In this document: piece by piece, positions 35,566 to 48,725 of the stretch | Numbering within the stretch: position 1 is the first letter of the stretch | Layout of the letters: every line of letters begins with the position of its first letter | From: Candidatus Accumulibacter phosphatis | Lineage (GTDB): Bacteria > Pseudomonadota > Gammaproteobacteria > Burkholderiales > Rhodocyclaceae | Assembly (NCBI RefSeq): GCF_012939955.1 | Contig: NZ_SPMY01000045.1 | Span: forward strand, 62,001 to 126,000 | Direction of reading: 5' to 3' | DNA length: 64,000 nucleotides | The notes under the pieces: model-generated | What the model was told of the DNA's origin: nothing | Databases searched by the model: none | The model's input: only the letters and a program-made list of their open reading frames with translations | Program-made: the position numbers and the translations under genes

Positions 35566-36411
35566 TCATTGATCTTCCCGGCACATGCGGCGGATTTCAT
35601 CTTCCTTGATGGCCAACTCGACCTGTTGCAAGACCGCGTCGACATCGGCCAGGCGTTCGTCAAGAACGACTCGGCCCGTCAAGGCAAGCTCCGGGGTCAG
35701 CAGGCCACTTTCGTAGTGCGCCCAGATTTCCTTGCCGAACTGGCTGCCCACCAGCGAGGGCGCAAAACTGCTGAAGTAGCTGCGCAGATTGATCACGTCC
35801 CGCGCGAACATCTCGGCGGCGTTGCTGTTGCCCGCTGCGTCGATCGCCTGCGGCACATCGATGATCACCGGTCCGTCCTCGCCGACGAGGATGTTGTATT
35901 CGGAAAGATCGCCATGGATGATGCCGGCGCAAAGCATCCGCACCACCTGCTCGATCAGCAGGGCGTGAAATTCCAGCGCCAATTCTTCGCTGAGCTCGAC
36001 ATCGTTGAGGCGCGGTGCCGGATGGCCGTCGGCATCGACAATCAGATCCATCAGCAGGACGCCCTCATAGCAGAGATGCGGCTGTGGAACCCGCACCCCC
36101 GCAGCCGCCAGCCGATACAGGGCATCGACCTCGGCACTCTGCCAGACCTCTTCCTGCATCTTGCGCCCAAAGCGGCTGCCCTTCTCCATGGCGCGCGCCT
36201 GCCGGCTATTCCTGACCTTGCGGCCTTCCTGATAGGAGGCATTGTTGCGGAAGCTGCGCTGGCTGGCTTCCTTATAGACTTTGGCGCAACGAATGTCGTC
36301 GCCACAGCGAACGACATAGACGGTGGCCTCCTTGCCGCTCATCAACTGGCCGAGCACCTGGTCGACGAGGCCTTCTTCAACGAGTGCTAAAAGTCTTGCG
36401 GGTGTTTTCAT
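35566..36411 (-). CDS. RIO-type serine/threonine protein kinase
   Basis: 281 residues. ATP-binding region LMSGKEATVYVVRCGDDIRCAKVYK, catalytic loop GIIHGDLSEYNILV and metal-binding PVIIDVPQAID match the RIO1-like fold. Bacterial RIO kinases have few known substrates. It starts at ATG 36411 and is 22 bases upstream of the DUF3616 gene on the same strand. Confidence 0.88.
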   Translation of the reverse strand: MKTPARLLALVEEGLVDQVLGQLMSGKEATVYVVRCGDDIRCAKVYKEASQRSFRNNASYQEGRKVRNSRQARAMEKGSRFGRKMQEEVWQSAEVDALYRLAAAGVRVPQPHLCYEGVLLMDLIVDADGHPAPRLNDVELSEELALEFHALLIEQVVRMLCAGIIHGDLSEYNILVGEDGPVIIDVPQAIDAAGNSNAAEMFARDVINLRSYFSSFAPSLVGSQFGKEIWAHYESGLLTPELALTGRVVLDERLADVDAVLQQVELAIKEDEIRRMCREDQ

Positions 36412-36658
36412 GGGGTGTTCATTTTTGTGGCAATGCCGCAGTGTAGCGCCTTCCGCCGTACACCACAGCGCGGTAGGCCGCCTCGCGATCCGGCTGCAAG
36501 CTCGCCCGCCTTGACTCGGCCGACCAAGGCCAGAGATACTCTGGCTGCTATCGATGTCTTTACCGTCGCATTCTTGCCAAGCGTGGTTTCATTCGTATAA
36601 TCGCCCGACTCTGGTTCGTGCGACGTCCCACGACCTATCGACCATCCCGGGAGGTGGA

Positions 36659-37390
36659 ATGAAGGGTATCCTGAATTTTCTGGCGAGAGCAAATCTGATT
36701 GAGCTCTCGGACGATGAGCGACTGGCCGCCGCCGAAGCTGAACAGGCCGCTGCCGACACGCAATCCTACGCTGCGGAGCCCGCAAGTGCTGCCGATATGC
36801 CCGTGGAAACAGGTGACGCTTCGCCGCCGGAATTGGCGACCGTTGGCGCTCCGGCAGAGCAACTCGCAGGTAGACAGGAAGGCATCCCCTTGCCCGACAT
36901 CTACGCCGCCGCCGCTGTGCCCGCTTCGCCGTATGCGGCAGAAAAGCTCCTGCGCCTGCTCGACGGCCTGCGAGCGATGGACGCCGGGACGCGGCACGCA
37001 GCGGTCCTGGCGATGGACGCGGCTGATGACAACTGGCAGATCGTCGATTGTGTGCGCGATGCCCAGTTCAAGATCTCGGCGCTCGGCGCCTACAAGGAGC
37101 AGCTGACAGGACAGTTGCAGAACGGCGAGCAGCAAGCAGCCGAGGTGATCGACCAGATCAAGCTTTCGCTCGACAAGTCGAGCGTGGCGATTCGCCAGCA
37201 GATCACCGAACTCGAACAGTTGCTCGAACGCGAAGTGACGCGCGCTGCGCAGGAAACGACGCGAGTCGAGGCCGGCCTGCGCGCGGCGCGCGAGTCAAGC
37301 ACGCGTGAAACCCGACGCATGGACGCCGAGATCGAGCGCCTGCGAGAAATTCCGAACAATTTCAAGGCGCCTGATAGCGCTGCGCACTAA
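36659..37390 (+). CDS. Coiled-coil protein, first gene of an eight-gene membrane system
   Basis: 243 residues, not recognised. Start ATG 36659 with GGGAGGTGG upstream. A short N-terminal hydrophobic helix (MKGILNFLARANLIEL) is followed by an acidic Ala-rich linker (about 25-90), a compact helical region (AAEKLLRLLDGLRAMDAGTR), and a long coiled coil (about 145-235; QQITELEQLLEREVTRAAQE). No signal peptide. The next gene starts 15 bases downstream, so it is probably co-transcribed with the transporter. Confidence 0.7.
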   Translation: MKGILNFLARANLIELSDDERLAAAEAEQAAADTQSYAAEPASAADMPVETGDASPPELATVGAPAEQLAGRQEGIPLPDIYAAAAVPASPYAAEKLLRLLDGLRAMDAGTRHAAVLAMDAADDNWQIVDCVRDAQFKISALGAYKEQLTGQLQNGEQQAAEVIDQIKLSLDKSSVAIRQQITELEQLLEREVTRAAQETTRVEAGLRAARESSTRETRRMDAEIERLREIPNNFKAPDSAAH

Positions 37391-37405
37391 GCAAGGAGAA
37401 GACAG

Positions 37406-39121
37406 ATGGCGCAACTGACACCGATGGCCAAGGGCCTGATTACGGTCATAATTCTCGGCGTCGCCGGATCGCTGGCCTGGAACCTGGGCCTCAAGGAGCG
37501 CTTTGCCGGCGGCGGCGATGCAGCGGCGCTCTCCACGCCAGCGACCGCTACTGCAGAGGCCGCGGCCAGAGCCCAGCCGCCGACACCGACCAGGGCGCAG
37601 CCCACGGCTGCGACCGCCAAAGCGGACGCCAAGAACGCAGCGCTCGGCACCCCGGGCAACCCCCTCAAGGTGAGCCTGGTCAGCTTCCACGGCTACGCAC
37701 CCGCCCTGGTCGCCAATGGCAATTCCCTGGACACGCAGCCGGGGTCGATTTACAGCAAGATAGGCCTGAATGTGCGCTTCGTGATTCAGGACGACATTCC
37801 GACGCTGGCGACGATCTTCGAATCCGGCGCGGCGCAGTGCGCATGGCGAACCTCAGACTTCTGGGCCCAGGAGCAACCGAACCTGCGTAACGCGGGCCTC
37901 GACGGCAAGGCGGTGATGATTGTCGATAACACGCAGGGAGGCGACGCGGTCATCGCCAGCGATCCAGCGGTGAAGGCCATCGAAGACCTGGCCGGACGTT
38001 CGGTGGCGCTGCTCCAGTTCACGCCGTCGCACGGCATCCTGATCGACGCGCTGGACAACGCCTCACTGACGGCGCGCAAGAAGGAAAGTGTCAAGATCGT
38101 CTTCATCAATGCCGAGGAAGGCACGGCCGGCGTGCGCGCCGCGCTCGAGTCCGGGCACGTCGATGCGGCGGTTCTCTGGGACCCGGACCTGGCCCTGGCG
38201 CTGCGCAACGTCAAAGGCGCGCACGTCGTCTACTCGACGAAGACGGCCACCAACCTGATTTTCGACGTCATGGTCTGCGACTCGCGCCTGCTGGCGAAGC
38301 CCGAGGGACAGGCCGTGGTCCAGAAGTTCGTCGAAGGCTGGATGGAAGGCGTGCCGGCAGCACGCGCCAATCCGGACAACGCGGTGGACGCGCTGGTCAA
38401 CACCGAGGAGTTCTTCAAGTTGCTCGCCGACAAGGAAGGCCGGCCTTTTGTCAAGAACCTGTTCCCGAACGTGGTGTGGACCGGCGTCGAAGAAAACGCC
38501 CGCATTCTCGGTCTGGCCGGTGGCACCAACCACTACGAGCGTGTCTACAAGCGTTTTGACGAGATCTACCGCAAGGCCGGCGCGCTGGCCAATCCAAAAT
38601 CGCCGGTGATCGCGCCGCAGGACAGCTTCGACTACCGCTTCATCAAGGCCATTCTGGCCCGTGATCAGCCGGCTGCGACCGCCGCCGCACAACCACAGAC
38701 CAGCTTCACGCAAGCCTCGCTCAAGGAAGCCACGCAACAGCAAGCGATGGTGACCAAGCCGGTGACCGTTGGTTTTGCCTCGGGCAGCACTGACTTGAGC
38801 AAGCGCGCCCATAAGACGATCGATGCCGAGATGGTGCCGTTCATCGAGAACAACGGCAAAGCCTACTTCGAAGTCAGCGGCAATTCCGACTCGACGGGCG
38901 CTCGCGAGGTGAATCAGCGTCTTTCGGAGGTCCGCGCCCGGGCCGTGGTCGACTATCTGGTCACGCAATGGGAGTTCCCGCGCGAGCGTTTCAAGATTGT
39001 CGGCAATGGCCCTGATCGTCCGCTGTGCAACGAAGCCAACGCCGCCGCCGAAGGCTTGTCCCTCGAAGACTGCCGAGCGCTTAACCGGAGCACCCGGGTA
39101 GCTGTGTTCGGCGGCCGTTAG
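37406..39121 (+). CDS. Membrane-anchored substrate-binding protein fused to an OmpA-type domain
   Basis: 571 residues. One N-terminal helix (GLITVIILGVAGSLAWNLGL) and a Pro/Ala-rich spacer lead to a NitT/TauT-type periplasmic binding domain (about 85-410; VSLVSFHGYAPALVANGN, ESGHVDAAVLWDPDLALA). The C-terminal OmpA_C domain (about 450-571) keeps the peptidoglycan-binding Asp in VSGNSDSTGAREVNQRLSEV and Arg in LNRSTRVAVFGG. The protein should sit in the inner membrane and reach the cell wall. It is followed by its permease and ATPase. The fusion is unusual for a binding protein. Ligand unknown. Confidence 0.85.
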   Translation: MAQLTPMAKGLITVIILGVAGSLAWNLGLKERFAGGGDAAALSTPATATAEAAARAQPPTPTRAQPTAATAKADAKNAALGTPGNPLKVSLVSFHGYAPALVANGNSLDTQPGSIYSKIGLNVRFVIQDDIPTLATIFESGAAQCAWRTSDFWAQEQPNLRNAGLDGKAVMIVDNTQGGDAVIASDPAVKAIEDLAGRSVALLQFTPSHGILIDALDNASLTARKKESVKIVFINAEEGTAGVRAALESGHVDAAVLWDPDLALALRNVKGAHVVYSTKTATNLIFDVMVCDSRLLAKPEGQAVVQKFVEGWMEGVPAARANPDNAVDALVNTEEFFKLLADKEGRPFVKNLFPNVVWTGVEENARILGLAGGTNHYERVYKRFDEIYRKAGALANPKSPVIAPQDSFDYRFIKAILARDQPAATAAAQPQTSFTQASLKEATQQQAMVTKPVTVGFASGSTDLSKRAHKTIDAEMVPFIENNGKAYFEVSGNSDSTGAREVNQRLSEVRARAVVDYLVTQWEFPRERFKIVGNGPDRPLCNEANAAAEGLSLEDCRALNRSTRVAVFGGR

Positions 39122-39140
39122 AGCCAGCGATCGAACGACG

Positions 39141-39938
39141 ATGAGCGAATTCTGGAACCCCTACGCGCCGCCGGATCCGCAGCGCCGCCGCTTGCTCGGT
39201 GTCGGCTCGGTGCTCGCCGTGCTGCTGCTGTGGAGCGCCGTCGCCGCTTCCGGGCTGGTCAGTCAGACCCGGCTGCCGGCACCCTGGGACGTCGTTTCGG
39301 CCTTTGCCTACCTGGCCTGGAGCGATGGCCACAGCATGCTCCTGACGGCAACGCTGTGGTCGGGCGGTCGGCTGCTCGTTGCCGGCCTGCTGGTGATCAT
39401 CATCGGCATTCCGATCGGCATCGTCATGGGCGCCGCGCCGCAGATCAATGCGGCACTGTCGCCGCTCGTCGATCCCTTCCGCTCGGCGCCGGTGGTGGCC
39501 CTGCTGCCCATTCTGGTGATGTGGATGGGTATCGGCGAGTCGATGAAGATCGCCTTTTTGTTCATCGGCGCCGTGGTGTACCTGATTCCGATGGTCCGCG
39601 ACGCCATTCAGGCGGTGCCGCAAAGCTACTGGATCGGCGCCCGCGATCTCGGCGCCACGCCCTGGGAATGCATCCGCCAGGCGGTGGTGCCCATGGCCAT
39701 GCCGCGCATCGCCGACGCGGTGATCGTCGCCTTCTCGGTGATGTGGACCTACATCACCGTCGCTGAATACGTGAATGCCCGTGAGGGACTTGGCCAGTTG
39801 ATCCAGAATGCTCGCCGCTTCAGCGCCTGGGATCAGGTGTTTGCCGGCATCATCGTCATCATTGCGCTGGCGCTGCTCACCTACCGCTTGATGATCTGGC
39901 TCAAGCGCCGCCTCTATCCCTGGGAAACACAGCAATGA
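39141..39938 (+). CDS. ABC transporter permease (NitT/TauT type)
   Basis: 265 residues with six hydrophobic helices. Features of the SsuC/TauC branch are LPAPWDVVSAFAYLAW, the EAA loop WIGARDLGATPWECIRQAVV, and VMWTYITVAEYVNAREGLGQ. The stop overlaps the ATPase start (ATGA). It should form the channel for the upstream OmpA-fused binding protein. Confidence 0.9.
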   Translation: MSEFWNPYAPPDPQRRRLLGVGSVLAVLLLWSAVAASGLVSQTRLPAPWDVVSAFAYLAWSDGHSMLLTATLWSGGRLLVAGLLVIIIGIPIGIVMGAAPQINAALSPLVDPFRSAPVVALLPILVMWMGIGESMKIAFLFIGAVVYLIPMVRDAIQAVPQSYWIGARDLGATPWECIRQAVVPMAMPRIADAVIVAFSVMWTYITVAEYVNAREGLGQLIQNARRFSAWDQVFAGIIVIIALALLTYRLMIWLKRRLYPWETQQ

Positions 39939-40804
39939 GTGCGCCAACGACGGCGGCCGGCAGGCCAGTCGCGGCAGCTGCCGCAAAGTCGGTTGCGGTG
40001 GCCCTCAAGGACATCGTTCAGGAATATCCGGTGCACTCCGGTGCCGTCACACGGGTGATCGATCGCGTCACCCTGAGCTTCGAGCAACCGGGGATCAACA
40101 TGCTGCTCGGTCCCTCCGGCTGCGGCAAGAGCACCCTGCTGCACATGCTTGGTGGCGTGCGGCCAATGGGCGTCAAGACGCCGACTTCAGGCAGCGTGAT
40201 GATCGACGGTGTCGAGTGCCACGGCGCCCACGACGATTCGGTGATGGTCTTCCAGCGCTATGCCAATCGACCCGACCTGTCGGTGTTCGACAATGTTGCC
40301 TTCCCGTTTCGGCTCAAGCTCTGGAAGTCGCGCGAGCCGGAAGCCGAATGGCGTCAGCGCGTCACCGACCTGCTCAAGGCTGTCGGTCTGGCGGACAAGG
40401 CCGGCCTACGGCCAGCGCAGCTCTCCGGCGGACAAAACCAGCGCGTCGCGCTGGCGCGGGCCCTGGTCCTGCGGCCGAAAATCCTGCTCATGGATGAGCC
40501 CTTCGGCGCCCTCGATGCGCAGACGCGCGAGGAAATGCAGCAGCTGCTGATCGACCTCTACCAGTCCTGGCCATGCCTGGTCGTTTTCGTCACCCACGAC
40601 GTGACCGAAGCGCTGCTCCTTGGCGACCGGGTAATCGTCCTGTCGGGCCAGCCGGCGCGTGTCGCCGACGATTTTCTGATCGGCGAACCGCGTCCGCGCG
40701 CGGCGGCATGGCAGCGCTCGGCGGCGGCTCAAGGCCTCGAGGAGCGCATTCTCGCCCAGCTCCACGCCAGTCCCGGCAAGGGCCAGGTCAGGGTCAGCAT
40801 CTAG
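39935..40804 (+). CDS. ABC transporter ATPase (NitT/TauT type)
   Basis: 289 residues. Walker [15 protein letters not shown], signature [16 protein letters not shown], Walker [13 protein letters not shown] and H-loop [11 protein letters not shown] are all intact. The N-terminal extension is Ala-rich. It overlaps the permease by 4 bases, and the next gene starts 2 bases after its stop. Confidence 0.92.
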
Positions 40805-40806
40805 CC

Positions 40807-41682
40807 ATGGCTGAAGAAACACCGCCGTACGTCAGGGAAGTCCTCACCAGTCAGGCCAATCTCTATGCGTTCCTCGGCTCGCTGGCCGCCGCGGCCCTGT
40901 TGTCGATCCCCTTCGGCTTCGGCATCGGGGCAGTGCCCTTGATTGCCTTTGCTGCCGGCGAAGTGCTCGCCGCCCTGCATGTCCCGTCCCTGCCCAGTTT
41001 TCGCGACCAGGTCGACCGCCGCTGGCGGGCCAAGGCGCGGCAGGCCTCGCGCGAACAACTGTTCGCGGAACTCCAGAAACGCGCCGCCAAACTGGAAGGC
41101 TATTCGAGCAGACTACGCACCTATCAAAGGATGCTGGAACGGGTCGATTCGCTCTACCAGCGCGCGGAAACCGGTCTTTCCCGGCTGCACTACCGGGACG
41201 TCGAGCAGCTCGACGACGTGACGCTGGAGTACCTTGGCCTGTGGTTGTCGGGTTTGGTGATGGATGATCGCGTCGAATCGATCAACCTGCAGGAAGTCGA
41301 TGCCATGCTGGCTGGCATCGAAAGAGAACTCGCCGCGCCGCGCCGGGGAGCCGATCTCCGGCAACTGCAGAAAGCGCGCGCCGACTACGTGGATCTGATC
41401 GAGCGGCATAACCGGATGCAGAGCCGCCGCCGGGCGCTAGAGGCGGCGATGCTGTCGATGCCCGACCAACTCGCCGAAATCTACCAGACGATCATGACCT
41501 TGCCGGCCTCCGAAGACATCGGTAACCGGCTCGAAGAGGCTGTCGGCAAACTGCGCCTGCAGGAAGACATCGAGGCCGATCTGGCCAGCGGCCTGGCCGA
41601 AGCACTGCCCGGGGTGGCCATGCCAAGCGCTGGCAGCGGCGCACGGCGCCTGGTGGCCGTGGCGAGCGCCAGCAGAAGCTGA
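40807..41682 (+). CDS. Membrane-anchored coiled-coil protein, function unknown
   Basis: 291 residues, start ATG 40807. Two adjacent hydrophobic segments near the N-terminus (LGSLAAAALLSIPFGFGIGA and VPLIAFAAGEVLAAL, about 22-58) suggest a hairpin in the inner membrane. The remaining about 230 residues are helical and charged (QLFAELQKRAAKLEGYSSRL; ARADYVDLIERHNRMQSRRR), presumably cytoplasmic. Not recognised. It links the transporter genes to the PspA/AAA/TerB genes. Confidence 0.72.
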   Translation: MAEETPPYVREVLTSQANLYAFLGSLAAAALLSIPFGFGIGAVPLIAFAAGEVLAALHVPSLPSFRDQVDRRWRAKARQASREQLFAELQKRAAKLEGYSSRLRTYQRMLERVDSLYQRAETGLSRLHYRDVEQLDDVTLEYLGLWLSGLVMDDRVESINLQEVDAMLAGIERELAAPRRGADLRQLQKARADYVDLIERHNRMQSRRRALEAAMLSMPDQLAEIYQTIMTLPASEDIGNRLEEAVGKLRLQEDIEADLASGLAEALPGVAMPSAGSGARRLVAVASASRS

Positions 41683-41789
41683 GAGGATTTGCCTGGAAAA
41701 TAGCGACTTTTTTGAAGGGTTGATGACGATCGCCGTCATTCGCTCACTCATACTTGGCCGGGGAACCGGTTTACGAAGGGAAGAAGGCA

Positions 41790-42503
41790 ATGGTTGATAT
41801 CAGTCTTGTGGGGCGTCTCTCCAACCTCTGGTCGGGCTTTGTCGCGCTGTGGATCACCGACGTGGAAAAGCGACATCCCGAAATCGCCTACCAGAACGCG
41901 ATCGATTCGATGATTGAAAAGTATGGCAAGTTGAAGACCGCCACGGCGGCAATCATGCGCCGCCGCGAGGACGTTTCGGCGCGCCTCGAAAGTGAGCGTA
42001 GCGAACTCGCGGCGGTCACCGCCGACCTCAACACCGCCCTGGCCACCGCTCAGGATGACCTCGGCATCGTCCTGATCCAGAAGAAGAACTCGCTCGACGC
42101 GAGCATCAAGGCGCTCGAACAGGAGATGGAGCAGGCGCGTACCGATACTCAGGAAGCGAAGGACTCGCTGCTGCAGGTCAAGTCCGAAATCCAGAAACTC
42201 AAGGACGAGAAGGACCGCATGCTGGCGCAGATGCTCAGCGCGCAGGCGCGCCTCAAGATCCAGAATCAGCTCGATGGTTTGTCGGTCGACGCCGAAGTGC
42301 GCGCCCTCGACAACGTCCGCGAACATATCAAGACGACTGTCGCCGAAGCAAAAATGGGCTCCGAAATGCGTGATTCCGACCTCGACGTCAAGCTCGCCAA
42401 GCTTCGCCAGAGTAGCGGCGCGGTGACCGCGCGTCAGCAGCTCGAGGAAATGAAGCGCGCACGTGCCGGCCAGGCGGATGCTGTCGCCGGCAAGTCGATG
42501 TAG
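41790..42503 (+). CDS. PspA/IM30-like coiled-coil protein
   Basis: 237 residues from ATG 41790 (AAGAAGG site). It is almost entirely helical, with an N-terminal amphipathic stretch ([20 protein letters not shown]) and a long coiled coil ([40 protein letters not shown]). This layout fits the PspA/Vipp1 superfamily of membrane-remodelling proteins. Assignment is from architecture and composition, not from a strict motif. Confidence 0.68.
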
Positions 42504-42518
42504 CTGCCGCAGAACGCC

Positions 42519-44378
42519 ATGACCCGCAGCAGCCCCGCAGCCGCAGATCAGCCGCCACATCCATCACATTCACCGCGCCCACCACTGCCGGGCTGGGCGG
42601 AGACGCTGCGCCAGAAGTATCTGGCCGGCGAAGCTTCGGTTTTCGTCATCTACCGCAATGTCTTTGACCGCTATCAGGTCGGCGATCGCTATTACACGCT
42701 ATTGCCCTTGCTCAGCGAGGTGCTGCTCAAGGACAACAAACAGCAGATCTTCGAACTGAGCATCGACCGCGGCGTGCGCATCGTCCAGGGGAGCAGCGCG
42801 CAGGGAAAGATCGAGCTCTATCGCCATCTGGAAGGCAAGGGGCTGGCCGGGATCTTCGAATCGCTCGAGCGGCAGATGCTCGAGCAACGTTCGAGCGCCC
42901 TGCTGATTCCCTACGCGGGGACCCTTTTTCCGGCGGCCGAGCCGCACCTCCTGTCACTCGACGAGCGCGGAGCATTTACCGCCCTGCACCGCTGGTCGCT
43001 CGACGAAGAATTTTCCGATCGTGACAACGTCGTCATCCTGGTCAGCGAATCGCTGGCCGACATCAGCCCGGCTCTGCTGACGCATCCGCGCATCGTGGCC
43101 ATCGAGTTGCCGATGCCGGATCGTGAAGCGCGCCACGCGGCGATCGGGCATTACGCAGCCGGCATGCCCGCTGCTGAAGCCGATCTGCTGGCCGATCATA
43201 CCGCCGGACTACGCCTGATACAGTTGGCCAGCATCGTTGCCAGCGAAGCACCGCAGGCGCTCAGCGAGCAGCAACGACGAAGCCTGATCGTCGGACTGCT
43301 GCAGGGCAGTCCGAACGCCGAGCAGCGCGCGCAAAGACTCGCTGCGATCACCGCCGGCATGACGCCAGGCGAGATCCAGCAACTGGTCGACCCTACCCGG
43401 GCGCTGCCCGAAGAGGACCCGGCCGGCGAGATGCTGGCCGTCGTCCGCCAACGCAAGCGCGAGCTGATCGAGAAGGAGTGCGCCGGCCTGATCGAATTCA
43501 TCGAACCTCGGCACGGACTCGACAGCGTCGGCGGCAACGAGCACATCAAGAGTGAACTGCTCGAGATTGCCCGGCTGATGCGTAGCGGCGACCGAGCGCG
43601 GGCACCGATGGGTCTGCTCGCCGTGGGCCCGATGGGCGCCGGCAAGACCTTCGTCATCAAGGCCTTCCTCAAGGAGGCGGGATTGTCCGGCGTGGCGCTG
43701 AAGAACTTCCGCTCCAAGTGGGTCGGTTCGACCGAGGCCAACCTCGAACGGGTGCTGGCGACGGTCAAGGCCATGGGACCGATTGCGCTGCTCATCGACG
43801 AAGGCGACCGCAGCTTCGGCAGCACTGGCGATTCGGACGGTGGTACCGGTTCGCGAGTCATCGCCCGCCTCAAGGAGTTCATGTCCGACCCCGAGAACCG
43901 CGGCCAGGTGCTGTTCATCCTGATGACCAACCGCCCGGACAAGCTCGATACCGACATCAAACGTCCGGGGCGTCTCGATCGCAAGATTCCCTTCTTTTAC
44001 GCCGAAACGACCACTGAACGCGCCGCCGTCGTCGGCGCCATTTTTCGCCGCTACCAGGTCGCACTGCACCTCACCGACGCCGCCCTGCAAGAAGCCTGCG
44101 AAGTGCTGGAAGGCTATTCAAATGCTGACCTCGAAGCGCTCGCACTACTCGCTGCCGAATTTGCCGAACGCGCGCGGACAGCGCTGACCAGCGCGCTCCT
44201 GAAGCAGGCGATCGATGACTTCATGCCGCCGCAGGAGATCGCCATGGTGCGCTATATGGAGATGCTGGCGGTTTCGGAAACCTCTCGCCGCTCGCTGCTG
44301 CCGCAGCGCTTCCGCGCGCTATCGGTCCAGGAAGTGCAGACCCGACTCGCCGAGTTCAGGCGCCAGATCAACCTTTGA
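42519..44378 (+). CDS. AAA ATPase with degenerate N-terminal half (Ycf46-like layout)
   Basis: 619 residues. The N-terminal about 300 residues ([20 protein letters not shown] ... [20 protein letters not shown]) look like an ATPase-like domain without a P-loop. The C-terminal classical AAA module has Walker [10 protein letters not shown] (about 370-378), a pore-loop-like [19 protein letters not shown], Walker [13 protein letters not shown], sensor 1 MTNRPD and arginine-finger region [15 protein letters not shown]. Substrate unknown; a role on the PspA-like neighbour or transporter is inference. Confidence 0.82.
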
Positions 44379-44388
44379 AGGAGCTCTT

Positions 44389-44841
44389 ATGTTTCCCCAG
44401 TTCGATGATGTTTCGCTCAATGCCGCCCAGACCGTCGCCGCCACCCAAATGCTGCTGCGCATCGCGCACGTCGATGGCACAAGAAGCGCGGAAGAAGTGG
44501 CCCTGATTGGCCAGTTCTATGATGCCTGTCGCAATGCGGCGCTGGATTGGCCCGCTTTCGCCTCCCTGCAGACCGAGACGCCCGCCAGCGACGCCGCCGG
44601 CCTATTCACGGAGCCGGCGCAGCGCGACATTCTCGTCGCCACCTGCCTGCTGGTGGCCTACGCCGACGGTGCTCTGATTGACGAAGAATTGGCGGCGGTT
44701 CGCGACGTCGCCGCCGAGATCGGCATGGCCGCGGCACGCGTCGACGAACTGCTGGCCCTGGTCAAGGACTACATGCTTGCCCAACTCGCCAGTCTGCCCG
44801 ACGCCCACTCGGTGGCGGTGGTGGCACGCGAGTTGGGCTGA
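44389..44841 (+). CDS. TerB-like helical protein
   Basis: 150 residues, start ATG 44389 with AAGGAG. An all-helical protein with two acidic repeats typical of TerB-like folds: MLLRIAHVDGTRSAEEVALI and LLVAYADGALIDEELAAV. TerB-like proteins are small, acidic, often metal-binding and frequently accompany membrane-stress ATPases. It is the last gene of the run starting at 36659. Confidence 0.75.
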   Translation: MFPQFDDVSLNAAQTVAATQMLLRIAHVDGTRSAEEVALIGQFYDACRNAALDWPAFASLQTETPASDAAGLFTEPAQRDILVATCLLVAYADGALIDEELAAVRDVAAEIGMAAARVDELLALVKDYMLAQLASLPDAHSVAVVARELG

Positions 44842-45146
44842 TGGGCGGATGGGCACTGGCAGCGCCGTCCAGCTGCTAGCAAAGTCAAATGCACAACTTA
44901 AACTAGATTGATAGTTGTCTTGACTCAGGGGACCACTTTACCGCCAAACGCATGGGCGTTCGAGCGGCCAGGATCACTTCGGACAACAAGGTCGAATGGG
45001 ACGAGGTCATTGCCGCCAGCGCACGAAACGACGGTCGAGACGATATTTGCCTGACTTAATGAGAATTGTCTTGGCATTCTGCCCAAGGTCTTCCTATACT
45101 TCCTGGATAACTAGAAACCTTTGAACCTTGCCAGAGGAGACATGTA
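44842..45146. other. Intergenic region before the hemerythrin gene
   Basis: 305 bases. A 36-codon frame at 44951 (MGVRAARITSDNKVEWDEVI ...) ends in TAA but has no ribosome site; I do not call it. The hemerythrin promoter lies at the right end. Confidence 0.5.
45071..45100 (+). promoter_or_regulatory. Candidate sigma70 promoter of the hemerythrin gene
   Basis: TTGGCA, an 18-base spacer and TATACT, 46 bases before the start codon. Both boxes are close to consensus. Confidence 0.6.
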
Positions 45147-45605
45147 ATGGAGATTGCTCTTTCCCCGTTTCTGCCAGAGGCTCTGTTGGTCCATTTGCCA
45201 GAAATTGACGCCCAGCACGAGGAGGTATTTACCCGCATCGAGTCGCTCAAGGCGGGCTGTTTTGAAAACATCTCCGTAGATATCGCCGAGTTCCAAGGCT
45301 TGATCGACTGCTTCGCACTGCATTTCGCCACCGAAGAGCGACTGGCCGATGAAGCCGGGGTGGATTTCACTGCCCATGCCGAGATCCACCGCGGCACTCT
45401 TGGCCTGCTACGCAAGGCGCTGGATGATGTCCGTAACGGCGGACACGACGCGCATTCCTTCCTGCGTTATGCCGAGTTCTGGTTTGAACGTCATATTAGG
45501 GAAGACGACAAGCGGTTCATTGCCACCCTGGCGCAACGCCGACACTTCACGCTTCCGAGTAGCCACTGGCCTGCCGTCGAACACTATTTTTCCGCCCGGG
45601 TCTGA
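45147..45605 (+). CDS. Bacteriohemerythrin
   Basis: 152 residues. The di-iron ligands are visible: His in EIDAQHEEVF, His and Glu in FALHFATEERL, the two His of AHAEIHRGTL, and His/Asp in ERHIREDDKRF. It is a stand-alone O2-binding protein with no fused signalling domain. The GAGGAG site precedes the ATG at 45147. A role in O2 delivery or sensing under changing aeration is plausible. Confidence 0.92.
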   Translation: MEIALSPFLPEALLVHLPEIDAQHEEVFTRIESLKAGCFENISVDIAEFQGLIDCFALHFATEERLADEAGVDFTAHAEIHRGTLGLLRKALDDVRNGGHDAHSFLRYAEFWFERHIREDDKRFIATLAQRRHFTLPSSHWPAVEHYFSARV

Positions 45606-45633: not shown

Positions 45634-45828
45634 CTAGCGCCCGAAGGTAATCAGGCGCGGTCCTTGCCGTTCGCCCCAGGCCCCGAGTTTTCCGTCTGTT
45701 GCCAGTGCAAGCGTTGTTCCATTGCCAGCGGCGGCGGTGGCGATACGCTCCGCAATCGTGGTCGGCTCAACCGCGAAACGGTGGCCCGACACCCGCAGCG
45801 AGCCATCCTTGACTATCCGCTTGCGCAC
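45634..45828 (-). CDS. Possible small ORF (65 residues)
   Basis: Frame with coding-like composition (LRVSGHRFAVEPTTIAERIA and DGKLGAWGERQGPRLITFG). Its only reasonable start is GTG 45828 without a ribosome site, and it overlaps the end of the deacylase by 16 bases. No family recognised. It may be non-coding. Confidence 0.22.
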   Translation of the reverse strand: MRKRIVKDGSLRVSGHRFAVEPTTIAERIATAAAGNGTTLALATDGKLGAWGERQGPRLITFGR

Positions 45829-46856
45829 CAGTGGCGAGCAGCACTTGCGGAGTGTGGAAAAGGGATGCGCTCCATCAGATAACAAAGGCAGTCCTGCCGC
45901 ACCGCACGCGCGTCGAGCGTCAGCATGGCCGGTGTCGATGTTCGCCGCAGAGTGATCGTGCCGTCGCTGCAGGCGAAATAGTCTTCGCTCACGTCACGCC
46001 GTCCCTCGTCGCGGACGTCGAGCGGAAAGGCCAGGCGTGTGCGCCCAAACGCCGTGCCGGGCTCGAGTTGCCGGAAGTTCATGTGATCGAGCCGCGGATC
46101 GAAATCGACATCGGCCAGCGCATCCCCGAAACCGAAGGAAACCGCGGCCGGCACCCTCACTGTCGCTACCGTGTGATAAAGATCGATGTCATGCTCGTGG
46201 ACGTCATGCGACGGGAACTGCGCCAGATGCAGGCAAGCATTGATAAAGCTCGTGGCGTGCGCTTCGTTCGCCGCTTTGCCGGGCTTGCCACATTCCAGAG
46301 TTAATGACGGACACAGCGGCGAAAAAGCCGTCGTCTGCGAACCGGCCAGGCCACGGAACCAGACCACCGTGCGCGAAAATAGCAAGGCCAGATGTAGAAC
46401 CGCCTGATCGAGGCTATTCACCACGCAGTAGAGGGGATTGAGGCCTGTGTTGTTGTGGACATCTACACTGGCGAAGACGCCGCGCTCGCGCATGATGCGA
46501 TGGACCTCGCTCATCGCTGCGTGCTCCGGAGCGCCGGCATGCAGCTCGGTACCCGGCCAGACGCGGTTGTAATCAGGCTGATGATCGAGTCGACGCAGGC
46601 CTTCTCGCGCCGCCGCGACATTGCCAACCAGGATCGACAGCGCCCGCGGCAGTTGCCGACCGGCGTGAGCACGCAAAACGCTTTGCAGCGCGACAACGCC
46701 GCTGTCTTCGTTGCCGTGCAGCAGCACGGAAACCAGGAGCGGAGCCTCGCGTCGTCCGGGCAGATGGATCAAGGTCGGACCGTTCAACAGGCGATGCAGT
46801 TCGCGGGCAGGGGTTTCGAGAAAGCCCGCAGGCAGGGATTCAAGTACGGTCAGCAT
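45813..46856 (-). CDS. AstE/AspA-like zinc carboxypeptidase or deacylase
   Basis: 347 residues, start ATG 46856 (MLTVLESLPAGF). The M14-related zinc site is LLVSVLLHGNEDSGVVAL (His and Glu) plus SVDVHNNTGLNP. LYCVVNSLDQAVLHLALL and LTLECGKPGK fit the succinylglutamate desuccinylase/aspartoacylase family. Only 10 bases separate it from the upstream GCS2-type ligase, so the two may act on the same amide. Substrate unknown. Confidence 0.82.
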   Translation of the reverse strand: MLTVLESLPAGFLETPARELHRLLNGPTLIHLPGRREAPLLVSVLLHGNEDSGVVALQSVLRAHAGRQLPRALSILVGNVAAAREGLRRLDHQPDYNRVWPGTELHAGAPEHAAMSEVHRIMRERGVFASVDVHNNTGLNPLYCVVNSLDQAVLHLALLFSRTVVWFRGLAGSQTTAFSPLCPSLTLECGKPGKAANEAHATSFINACLHLAQFPSHDVHEHDIDLYHTVATVRVPAAVSFGFGDALADVDFDPRLDHMNFRQLEPGTAFGRTRLAFPLDVRDEGRRDVSEDYFACSDGTITLRRTSTPAMLTLDARAVRQDCLCYLMERIPFPHSASAARHWCASG

Positions 46857-46866
46857 GAACTGGGAC

Positions 46867-48288
46867 TCATATCGGCCACTCGTGCACCGGCACGAGACGG
46901 CGTTGATGCTCAAGATAATCGGCGGTAAGCCGGAAGAAATCCTGGTACTTCGCATAGTGGGCAAGTTGCCAGGCGGCGCCGTTCTGGCGGTAGCGCAGGC
47001 GCGCGCTAATCACGTCGAGGTAGCGAGTGATGTCGCCTGCGGCAAGATCGAGCTCGGCCAGTCCTTCGCGAGCCAGCGGCAGCAGTTCGCGCAAGAGAAG
47101 TTCGGCCACATTTTGACAGCGCCCGTCGAGCCACACCACCTGCGCCTCAAGACCATACCGTGCGGCACGGTAGAAATTTTCGCGCGCAACGGCAAACGGC
47201 AGCCGGGCTTCAGGAGCTTCCGCCTGCCTGGCCAGACAGCGTACCGCGCCATAGTACAAGGCAGCATTGGCGATCATGTCGATCACGCTCGGACCAGCAG
47301 GCATGACGCGCTGCTCGACGCGCAAATGCGGCACTTGGTCTTTCTCGAGGCCGATCAGCAGCCGATTCCAACGCCAGATGGTCCCGTTGTGCAGACGCAG
47401 ATGCGCATACGAGCTCACCGGCCCCGCCTCTACATACGGCAAGAGTACCGGATACGATGACAGGTTCTCCGCAAAACACGCCATCGGGTCCTTGCCGAGA
47501 TAAGCTGAACCGAAGGTTACCCGCATATGCTCGGGATGGCCCGGTTGGCGGCAATCGACCGCCTGCTCGAACAAGGGTATCCGGGTTTCGTGCCAGAGCG
47601 CTCGCCCGAACAAGAATGGTGAATTGGCGGCCAGCGCAACCAAGGGTGCAGCGAGAAGCTGCGACGCATTGTACGTGCGCGCGACCTCGTTGACCGGTGT
47701 CTGCAGATGTACCTGAAAAGAGGTGGTCGCCGCCTCAAGCATCACATCGGAGTGGGTCGCGGTGAGCGTTTCGATGCCGGCGATATCCAGCGTCAACGGC
47801 CGCCCACCGCGTCGCCGCAAGACCTGGTCGTTGAGAGCCGCGTAGCGCTTGAAAGGAGACATGCTGCTCAGCGACAGATCTCGCTCGCGCAATGTCGGCA
47901 AGGTTCCGATGGCGATCAGTGCCACGCCCTCTTCTGCAGCCACCTGCTGGCATCGCTGCCAGGTTGCGGTCAGCTCACCTTCAAGCTGTGACAGCGCGGT
48001 AGCCCTCAAGGCCTGCGGCGTGCCGTTGATCTCGACGTTGAATAGAGAAAGCTCGGGCACCACCAGCGGGCTGGCCATGCGCTGCAGAAAAGAGACGTTG
48101 CGCGGCGACGGAAAGAAATGCTCATCAATCAGCCAGGCCTCAAGTTCGAAACCCGCGACCAGGCCGGCATTGGCGAAAGCTCCCGCCCTGTACGCCTTGT
48201 GGGCATGCGCGGTCTCTTGCTCAAGGCGCTGGCTGAAGCGCGCGAAGTCATCCGCCGTAAAGCCGTCACTGCCAATCTCCTTGCCCAT
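46867..48288 (-). CDS. GCS2-type carboxylate-amine / glutamate-cysteine ligase
   Basis: 473 residues from ATG 48288 (MGKEIGSDGF); an upstream start at 48315 is possible. The family's metal/ATP strand is AGLVAGFELEAWLIDE, followed by VPELSLFNVEINGTP, LQVHLQTPVNEVARTYN-type region (SFQVHLQTPVNEVARTYNAS) and PYVEAGPVSSYAHLRLHNGT. The fold condenses an amino acid carboxylate with an amine using ATP. Because it is paired with a deacylase rather than gshB, a product other than glutathione is possible. Confidence 0.82.
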   Translation of the reverse strand: MGKEIGSDGFTADDFARFSQRLEQETAHAHKAYRAGAFANAGLVAGFELEAWLIDEHFFPSPRNVSFLQRMASPLVVPELSLFNVEINGTPQALRATALSQLEGELTATWQRCQQVAAEEGVALIAIGTLPTLRERDLSLSSMSPFKRYAALNDQVLRRRGGRPLTLDIAGIETLTATHSDVMLEAATTSFQVHLQTPVNEVARTYNASQLLAAPLVALAANSPFLFGRALWHETRIPLFEQAVDCRQPGHPEHMRVTFGSAYLGKDPMACFAENLSSYPVLLPYVEAGPVSSYAHLRLHNGTIWRWNRLLIGLEKDQVPHLRVEQRVMPAGPSVIDMIANAALYYGAVRCLARQAEAPEARLPFAVARENFYRAARYGLEAQVVWLDGRCQNVAELLLRELLPLAREGLAELDLAAGDITRYLDVISARLRYRQNGAAWQLAHYAKYQDFFRLTADYLEHQRRLVPVHEWPI

Positions 48289-48725
48289 CGCCCCCCCCTT
48301 CGAAGTGTGCGACACCAGCCTCCATTTGACAGCCGAGTCTATTCGCTAGCCCTTATGAACGCTTGCGGTAGATCAAGTTCTTGTCACCCCGATACAGCGC
48401 CGCCGCACGCTCTTTATGCTATCGCCAGGCGTATGCTGCGACCGGCGACGGCCACAGCAATGAGCACCGCCCCCGCGAGCGTAGCCCGATTGCCGCACTA
48501 TCGGCAAGCCAGTGACAGCCGCAGGGAGGCGTTTGTACGTCGACGACCATCGCTAGCCGCTCCAGGAGGCGAGCGAGCCGCCCCGGAGCGAGCGCCGAGC
48601 GTAACGAAAATGACACCAGAAACGCCATTCTTCGCGGTATATTGCTGACTCTGATCACCCGCCCTGTCTGTGACCTTGCACGTGCCCGTCGCCCGTAGCA
48701 GCAGTCACTCTTGCGAAAGCTCTTG
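48289..48725. other. Intergenic region, no gene recognised
   Basis: About 437 bases between the divergent ligase and the FGE-like gene. Short frames lack starts and recognisable products. It should contain both promoters. Confidence 0.5.

Follow-up and report, generated by a model that had tools for sequence, protein, structure and literature searches.

A conserved eight-gene PspA, AAA+ and TerB operon in Candidatus Accumulibacter phosphatis with an exchangeable solute- and wall-binding component

Gene content and promoter cues of the locus

The operon described here lies in a stretch of 64,000 nucleotides from Candidatus Accumulibacter phosphatis (contig NZ_SPMY01000045.1, positions 62,001 to 126,000 of the forward strand; RefSeq assembly GCF_012939955.1, 5.04 Mb in 149 contigs), hereafter referred to as the window. 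Open reading frame (ORF) calling in the window reveals eight real ORFs, g1 to g8, at positions 36659-44841, all on the plus strand and tightly packed, with intergenic gaps of -4 to 19 bases, except for the 107 bases preceding g6. The Pfam scan adds matches to OmpA, NMT1, permease, ATP-binding cassette (ABC) ATPase, PspA_IM30, AAA and TerB families, all of which exceed their cut-offs. The coordinates and matches confirm an earlier reading of the same DNA from its letters alone (the sequence-only reading), which had described eight plus-strand genes with short gaps or overlaps, 107 bases before the PspA-like gene, and an OmpA-fused binding protein with PspA-like, AAA and TerB-like partners. The promoter-like site and the genes are as follows:

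36574..36601, plus strand: sigma-70-like promoter (TTGCCA, 16 bases, TATAAT), 11/12 matches, 57 bases upstream of g1
36659..37390, plus strand: g1, predicted cytoplasmic coiled-coil protein of 243 residues (sequence features; no Pfam family above cut-off)
37406..39121, plus strand: g2, protein of 571 residues with a membrane anchor at the N terminus, a solute-binding domain of the NMT1/SsuA type and an OmpA peptidoglycan-binding domain at the C terminus (Pfam, hydrophobic segment)
39141..39938, plus strand: g3, NitT/TauT-type ABC permease (Pfam BPD_transp_1, 85.6 bits)
39935..40804, plus strand: g4, ABC ATPase (Pfam ABC_tran, 93.4 bits), motifs intact as seen in the translation
40807..41682, plus strand: g5, membrane protein of 291 residues with two hydrophobic segments and a coiled-coil part (no Pfam family above cut-off)
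41790..42503, plus strand: g6, PspA/IM30-family protein, 237 residues (PspA_IM30, 59.2 bits, cut-off 33.9)
42519..44378, plus strand: g7, AAA+ protein of 619 residues whose N half lacks Walker A and whose C half is an intact classical AAA domain (AAA, 87.7 bits)
44389..44841, plus strand: g8, TerB-like protein, 150 residues (TerB, PF05099, 33.3 bits, cut-off 24.4)

Four sigma-70-like sites were found in positions 36200-45200, compared to 1.2 expected, and the best of these is the one preceding g1; the others comprise a weaker site at 36511, one within g2 and one downstream of the operon. The search for such a site in the 107-base gap before g6 yielded none. A promoter-like site upstream of g1, with none in this gap, would be a cue for a single transcript. 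In a comparison limited to the element CGTATAAT, it was found upstream of g1 in 11 of 12 Accumulibacter-group loci, L005 (loci and genomes carry our own L and G numbers) being the exception. The gap preceding the PspA gene varies from 23 to 214 bases across the 14 loci compared. In the window it contains a perfect 6-bp inverted repeat (ATGACG-ATCGC-CGTCAT, positions 41723-41739), which was discarded as a conserved element: among 14 loci compared, the repeat is intact only in L002, the locus of Ca. A. meliphilus, with which the window shares 98% PspA identity.

Relatives of the operon and the content of its periplasmic slot

A PspA query of genome contigs gave 69 loci; with the window and L071-L075, L078 and L079 included and three duplicates dropped, the comparison comprises 77 rows. 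The genes g1, g5, PspA, AAA and TerB are all present in 56 of these 77 non-duplicate loci. The remaining 21 consist of 14 loci truncated at contig ends, four of a distant compact type and three (L032, L042, L071) that are incomplete. Gene order is preserved in loci down to 48% PspA identity, and the median intergenic gaps in the relatives, which include named strains of Hydrogenophaga and Chitinimonas, range from -4 to 42 bases (outliers up to 932). In addition, a g8-type TerB gene follows the AAA gene in 65 of the 66 loci outside group D (see below) whose contig continues for at least 600 bases, the exception being L042.

The frequency of the operon was assessed with an AAA profile built from PspA-adjacent loci and applied at strict E cut-offs to overlapping genome samples from the same phylum, the source genome included; scoring was restricted to the few top candidates of each genome, so weaker relatives may be missed. 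Positive genomes numbered 4/369 at the class level (E 1e-60), 6/300 at the order level (E 1e-100) and 4/398 at the phylum level (E 1e-55), and a wider AAA profile again gave 4/369 for the class (E 1e-70). The distribution of the operon is sparse. Plasmid-borne spread was rejected, since a scan of 72,556 plasmid records at E 1e-30 yielded nothing similar to g7. In all 11 genomes found via the AAA profile, the source genome among them, PspA adjoins AAA (in G553 judged from coordinates alone). Of the 10 whose region was read, 9 encode a solute- and wall-binding protein near the AAA gene, L071 being the exception. The operon PspA is the sole family match of its genome in 8 of 11 genomes, and G516, G399 and G367 possess a second one. 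This co-occurrence check, with the five-gene core in 56/77 loci and PspA-AAA adjacency in 11/11 genomes, bears out the earlier suggestion of one conserved unit, in which our confidence is high; the eight neighbouring genes of the window probably belong to such a unit.

Two further observations concern individual loci. An extra protein with a SWNGxFGSGVAxL segment is encoded immediately upstream of PspA in loci from different groups (L020:8088-8945 and the L071 ORF 6039-7355); the L020 copy matches no Pfam family above cut-off and is possibly another partner. In L032 (5958-8772), the sensor-less PspA-AAA-TerB trio is positioned downstream of genes resembling those for Hsp20, a universal stress protein and a protein with a BON domain, a neighbourhood that points to stress in general.

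The loci were classed by their periplasmic slot into A (32), B (30), C (4) and D (4), with 7 unassigned, including L024, L027, L064 and L066 at contig ends. In class A, as in the window, a solute-binding protein fused to OmpA (SBP-OmpA), a permease and an ATPase are situated between g1 and g5 in 31 of the 32 loci; in L015 g1 sits behind TerB. The SBP-OmpA protein of the window, g2, matches both OmpA (45 bits) and NMT1 (25 bits) above the Pfam cut-offs and has one hydrophobic segment, at residues 6-25. Its solute-binding domain is closest to SsuA models (64 bits, cut-off 163.5), a name that does not fix the ligand, and the best NCBIfam model for g3 is TauC (131.9 bits, below the cut-off of 342). 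The Asp and Arg residues by which OmpA domains contact diaminopimelate are invariant in 8/8 aligned SBP-OmpA proteins. Because it combines an N-terminal anchor with a C-terminal peptidoglycan-binding domain, g2 should bridge membrane and wall.

In class B, the same interval contains a small transmembrane (TM) protein and a PG_binding_1/PotF-like protein in all 27 loci with both flanks. The former is Sel1-like, with a score below the Pfam cut-off, and the latter is composed of two PG_binding_1 stretches and an SBP_bac_8 domain, preceded by a signal-peptide-like N terminus. The binding domain is nearest to polyamine binders (229 bits against the PotF model, whose cut-off is 636; E 6.8e-61 against 3ttk, which is named as a polyamine transport protein), which does not fix its ligand. 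The pocket patterns NWxDY, SGD and [FI]D, which contain acidic pocket residues of PotF, are kept in 27/27 of the B binding proteins. Class C has a single SBP_bac_3-LysM protein between g1 and g5 (4/4 loci with both flanks). Its binding domain is amino-acid-binder-like, with lysine/arginine/ornithine as the best NCBIfam model (49.6 bits, cut-off 256), again without the ligand being fixed. The B and C domains were identified by Pfam in two loci of each class (L034, L029, L057 and L051), and the other loci were assigned via phmmer.

Where both flanking core genes are present, as in 31 B and C loci, the interval between them never contains permease or ATPase genes. A search of both strands of the class B, C and D locus sequences matched no g3-like permease, although an unrelated permease would escape it. 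Because the B, C and compact loci keep a solute- plus wall-binding protein without transporter genes, transport looks optional, and with moderate confidence we consider "sensor" a better description of the slot than "transporter". The sequence-only reading had proposed a wall-tethered transporter or sensor, and is partly supported: the sensor fits better, and the transporter is not constant. Its further suggestion that the cytoplasmic module exerts the control may be right, or the control may run the other way. Across the sequences compared, the predicted cytoplasmic set (g1, g5, g6, g7, g8) stays, while the slot is refilled by the same two-part design and the same anchor. Such swapping of the outer sensor part for unrelated proteins, with the wall-binding role kept, appears to be new.

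The common anchor was recognized by profile search. A single profile of 28 class A N-terminal segments finds both 27 B TM proteins (E 8.1e-11 or better) and four C proteins (E 2.1e-9 or better); among 3785 ORFs, its next match is no better than E 0.37. An anchor shared by three otherwise unrelated proteins suggests docking on a constant partner, for which g5, with its TM hairpin, would be the natural candidate. To trace the history of the slot, 73 AAA proteins were placed in a quick maximum-likelihood tree with D as the root; support came from the SH-like approximate likelihood ratio test (SH-aLRT) only, and several long branches make the deep joins unsure. Class A appears on both sides of this tree, C forms one clade, and so does B but for the unassigned L032 and L042 inside it, with a minimum of three changes among A, B, C and D. 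From these clades and this minimum, B and C each appear to have arisen by a single replacement in an A background.

The four class D loci (L072, L073, L078, L079), from distant members of the same taxonomic class, are compact, with PspA, AAA, TM/coiled-coil and SBP-OmpA genes adjacent in two gene orders. Neither g1, g3 nor TerB has a match in these loci, and g4 has a single 37.5-bit match, in L078, on the other strand and about 5 kb from the AAA gene. By hhalign, the TM/coiled-coil protein is distantly homologous to g5 (probability 87%, E 4.2e-6, 238 columns). The SBP-OmpA protein matches g2 (E 9e-12 in L072); in L072, the sole D locus scanned by Pfam, OmpA is above cut-off and NMT1 below it (17.9 versus 20.5). 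Because the compact loci carry these four proteins without g1, g3 or TerB matches, the four seem to be the minimal set. The compact system of L079 is part of a single-contig genome and adjoins recombination-type ORFs, presumably recB and recD by their appearance.

The PspA, AAA+ and coiled-coil proteins

The assignment of g6 to the PspA/IM30 family (PF04012, with the scores listed above) is accompanied by profile matches to Vipp1/PspA structures in a Protein Data Bank (PDB) search (E 2.5e-12). Its C-terminal end has the form K/R-x-L/M/I in all 72 relatives from A, B, C and the unassigned set whose C terminus is complete, and a narrower pattern chosen beforehand, K/R-S/T-M/L, is found in 51 of the 72. 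The PspA proteins of group D (L072, L073, L078, L079) lack an end of the K/R-x-L/M/I type. We propose this C-terminal tail as a candidate handle for g7; relatedness alone could also preserve it.

According to family models and profile search, g7 is Cdc48/AFG2-like; against the CdvC model it scores 51 bits (cut-off 650), and the Pfam scan gave no MIT domain match. Motifs were counted in 70 proteins of 560 residues or more. The C half carries Walker A, Walker B, sensor 1 and a KWVG-type pore loop in 70/70 relatives and an Arg finger in 69/70. The KWxG-type pore loop resembles that of Vps4. The N half, about 300 residues long, shows a weak likeness to Cdc48 D1 (E 7.5e-4, PDB search), and a Walker A motif occurs there in none of the 70. 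By analogy, a Vps4-like action of g7 can be put forward with moderate confidence.

Of the remaining core proteins, g1 has no predicted TM segment, and an alignment of 16 rows contains 18 invariant residues, mostly within positions 94-138. The hydrophobic segments of g5 (alignment of 20 rows) are at 19-41 and 42-60, forming the TM hairpin; the PDB profile search with g5 gave a best E of 0.026, which is not convincing.

The operon is flanked upstream by a RIO-domain kinase gene on the opposite strand (35566-36411 of the window). Downstream are a hemerythrin-like protein (45147-45605; 24.1 bits, just below the cut-off of 25.3) and two overlapping minus-strand ORFs (45813-46964 and 46867-48315) with matches to AstE/AspA-type deacylase and glutamate-cysteine ligase family 2.

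Known systems, proposed mechanism and alternatives

The sequence-only reading knew of no named system with this composition. In fact, Ravi et al. 2024 (PMC11237479) had already published most of it: they describe PspA, a two-domain AAA+ protein, an ABC ATPase, a permease and a PBPB-OmpA protein together, propose a link to solute transport and already point to AAA+ partners of PspA. A published account of the operon was among the outcomes that the sequence-only reading had named as refuting it, and this article is in part such an account. We saw no name for the unit there, and TerB, LysM and tellurite do not occur in the main text of that article. The window has PspA beside AAA+, together with the ABC ATPase, permease and PBPB-OmpA protein of the published operon. 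The "Snf7 homolog with TM" of that operon may be compared with g5, which has two hydrophobic segments and no sequence match to PspA; the AAA+ protein with an inactive N-terminal copy may be compared with g7, whose N half is without Walker A, is weakly like Cdc48 D1 and is dissimilar to the C half by hhalign. In contrast to the present set, section 18 of the article contains neither TerB, g1, the slot replacement, the shared anchor nor transporter-less loci. Among the papers listed in literature searches, judged by titles and abstract openings, we saw no other description of the eight-gene unit, and the one paper listed for Accumulibacter with phage shock is by its title not relevant. OmpA and TerB do not occur in the searched text of Popp et al. 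2022 (PMC9239133), and the one paper listed for TerB with PspA has the two words apart from each other, PspA only within a reference.

Several better-known systems share single parts with the operon. The canonical phage-shock system (PspF-ABC) has a PspA-family protein in common, whereas PspB, PspC and PspF are not among the family matches listed for the eight proteins, and the AAA protein here is of the Cdc48 kind. ESCRT-III with Vps4/CdvC likewise pairs an ESCRT-III-superfamily polymer protein with a classical AAA ATPase bearing a KWxG-type pore loop, but here no MIT domain was found by Pfam, the AAA protein is two-part, and the Pfam match is PspA_IM30 instead of Snf7. The NitT/TauT importers (SsuABC, TauABC) correspond to the binding domain of g2, to g3 and to g4, with binding protein, permease and ATPase with intact motifs all present; unlike in them, g2 is membrane-anchored and OmpA-fused and the genes are linked to PspA/AAA. 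The Ter (tellurite/stress) systems share the TerB domain, but no other Ter family is among the Pfam matches of the eight proteins.

We infer that the PspA polymer, remodelled by a Vps4-like AAA+ ATPase, is gated by a solute sensor tethered to the wall, and assign this reading a probability of about 0.55. The shared anchor would dock onto the TM hairpin of g5, and solute binding, or strain between membrane and wall, would alter g5 via the anchor. The coiled coil of g5 may then nucleate PspA or hold it at the membrane. The AAA ring, via its aromatic pore loop, would grip the conserved C-terminal tail of PspA subunits and pull them out, and this ATP-driven extraction would remodel the polymer or reset and renew it, as Vps4 does for ESCRT-III. 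TerB and g1 may regulate or scaffold the machine, and the ABC importer of the window could be an optional extra, perhaps for the same solute, or an added output. The outcome would be an inner membrane that is locally stabilized or reshaped. More tentatively, and at somewhat less than even odds, the operon may be viewed as a modular bacterial counterpart of ESCRT-III/Vps4, with a PspA polymer, a dedicated disassembly ATPase and interchangeable wall-tethered sensors plugging into one anchor, where the slot is refilled with differing binding domains (sulfonate/NMT1-, polyamine- or amino-acid-like) and differing wall-binding domains, and the machine kept.

A number of observations weigh against the sensor reading. 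Permease and ATPase genes are present in 32/32 A loci (their motifs were read in the window only), transport is probably used there, and the B and C genomes may carry matching permeases elsewhere. ABC ATPase-like ORFs exist outside the operon in L036, L047 and L059 (B), L061 (C) and L078 (D). In the Hydrogenophaga loci L047 and L059 the g1 ORF is preceded, at a distance of about 0.5-0.6 kb, by such an ORF (L047:2234-4533 and L059:2963-3613, with 60.5 and 64.2 bits against g4). In L047 a large ORF, hydrophobic at its start and a possible permease, stands before the ATPase-like one; because another ORF separates both from g1, we have taken this putative pair as a neighbouring transporter. A fourth B pocket pattern, around the position of PotF Glu185, is found in only 9/27 proteins. 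The A anchor profile misses the group D SBP-OmpA proteins, and in B the anchor is carried by the separate small TM protein, not by the binding protein. The sensor is not strictly needed, because L032, L042 and L071 have PspA and AAA (with TerB in L032 and L071) and upstream room with no sensor gene found beside them. Finally, hhalign detects no similarity between the N and C halves of g7 (shallow profiles), nor between g5 and PspA: g5 as a second PspA was rejected (probability 0.6%; unconvincing PDB matches).

The ABC genes of class A, their intact motifs in the window and the ATPase-like ORFs near the five B, C or D loci all favour the published reading of Ravi et al. 2024 (PMC11237479), a wall-tethered NitT/TauT-type importer coupled to membrane remodelling; on this view, permease-less loci would use a permease encoded elsewhere. 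We consider this rather unlikely: neither permease nor ATPase is found in the operon of any of the 31 B and C loci that have both flanks, each of the three unrelated binding domains would depend on a partner elsewhere, and the B, C and D locus sequences gave no g3-like permease, within the reach of that search. Alternatively, the peptidoglycan-binding domain and anchor could be what matters, as a wall-to-membrane strut or strain gauge, with the solute-binding domain as a rigid or modulating spacer. A wall-binding domain (OmpA, PG_binding_1 or LysM) indeed occurs in every version; but so does a solute-binding domain, and three of the four pocket patterns are kept in 27/27 B proteins, which makes the strut improbable.

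The idea of an anti-phage defence system arises from PADLOC, where g7 weakly matches the AAA protein IetA (33.3 bits). The match spans only the AAA domain, and the other PADLOC matches are at most 16.4 bits (seven proteins scanned, all but g4); this explanation was rejected as very improbable. The occurrence of PspA-AAA-TerB alone in L032 and L071, and of PspA-AAA alone in L042, might suggest two unrelated modules adjacent by chance. Such an origin is hardly credible given the order kept down to 48% PspA identity, the short median gaps (outliers up to 932 bases), the promoter element before g1 and the recurrence of the PspA, AAA, TM/coiled-coil and SBP-OmpA set in very distant loci.

Liu et al. 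2021 (PMC8281802) noted that it is unclear whether PspF works on PspA like Vps4, or whether an equivalent ATPase helps Vipp1. With a classical AAA+ protein beside PspA in 11/11 genomes and a candidate recognition tail, the question of a Vps4-like ATPase becomes accessible with purified proteins. The sensor replacements represent a natural experiment, and suggest that solute binding, wall binding and one anchor matter, while transport need not. If the sensor reading is true, these bacteria would link the repair of their inner membrane to nutrients and to contact with the cell wall.

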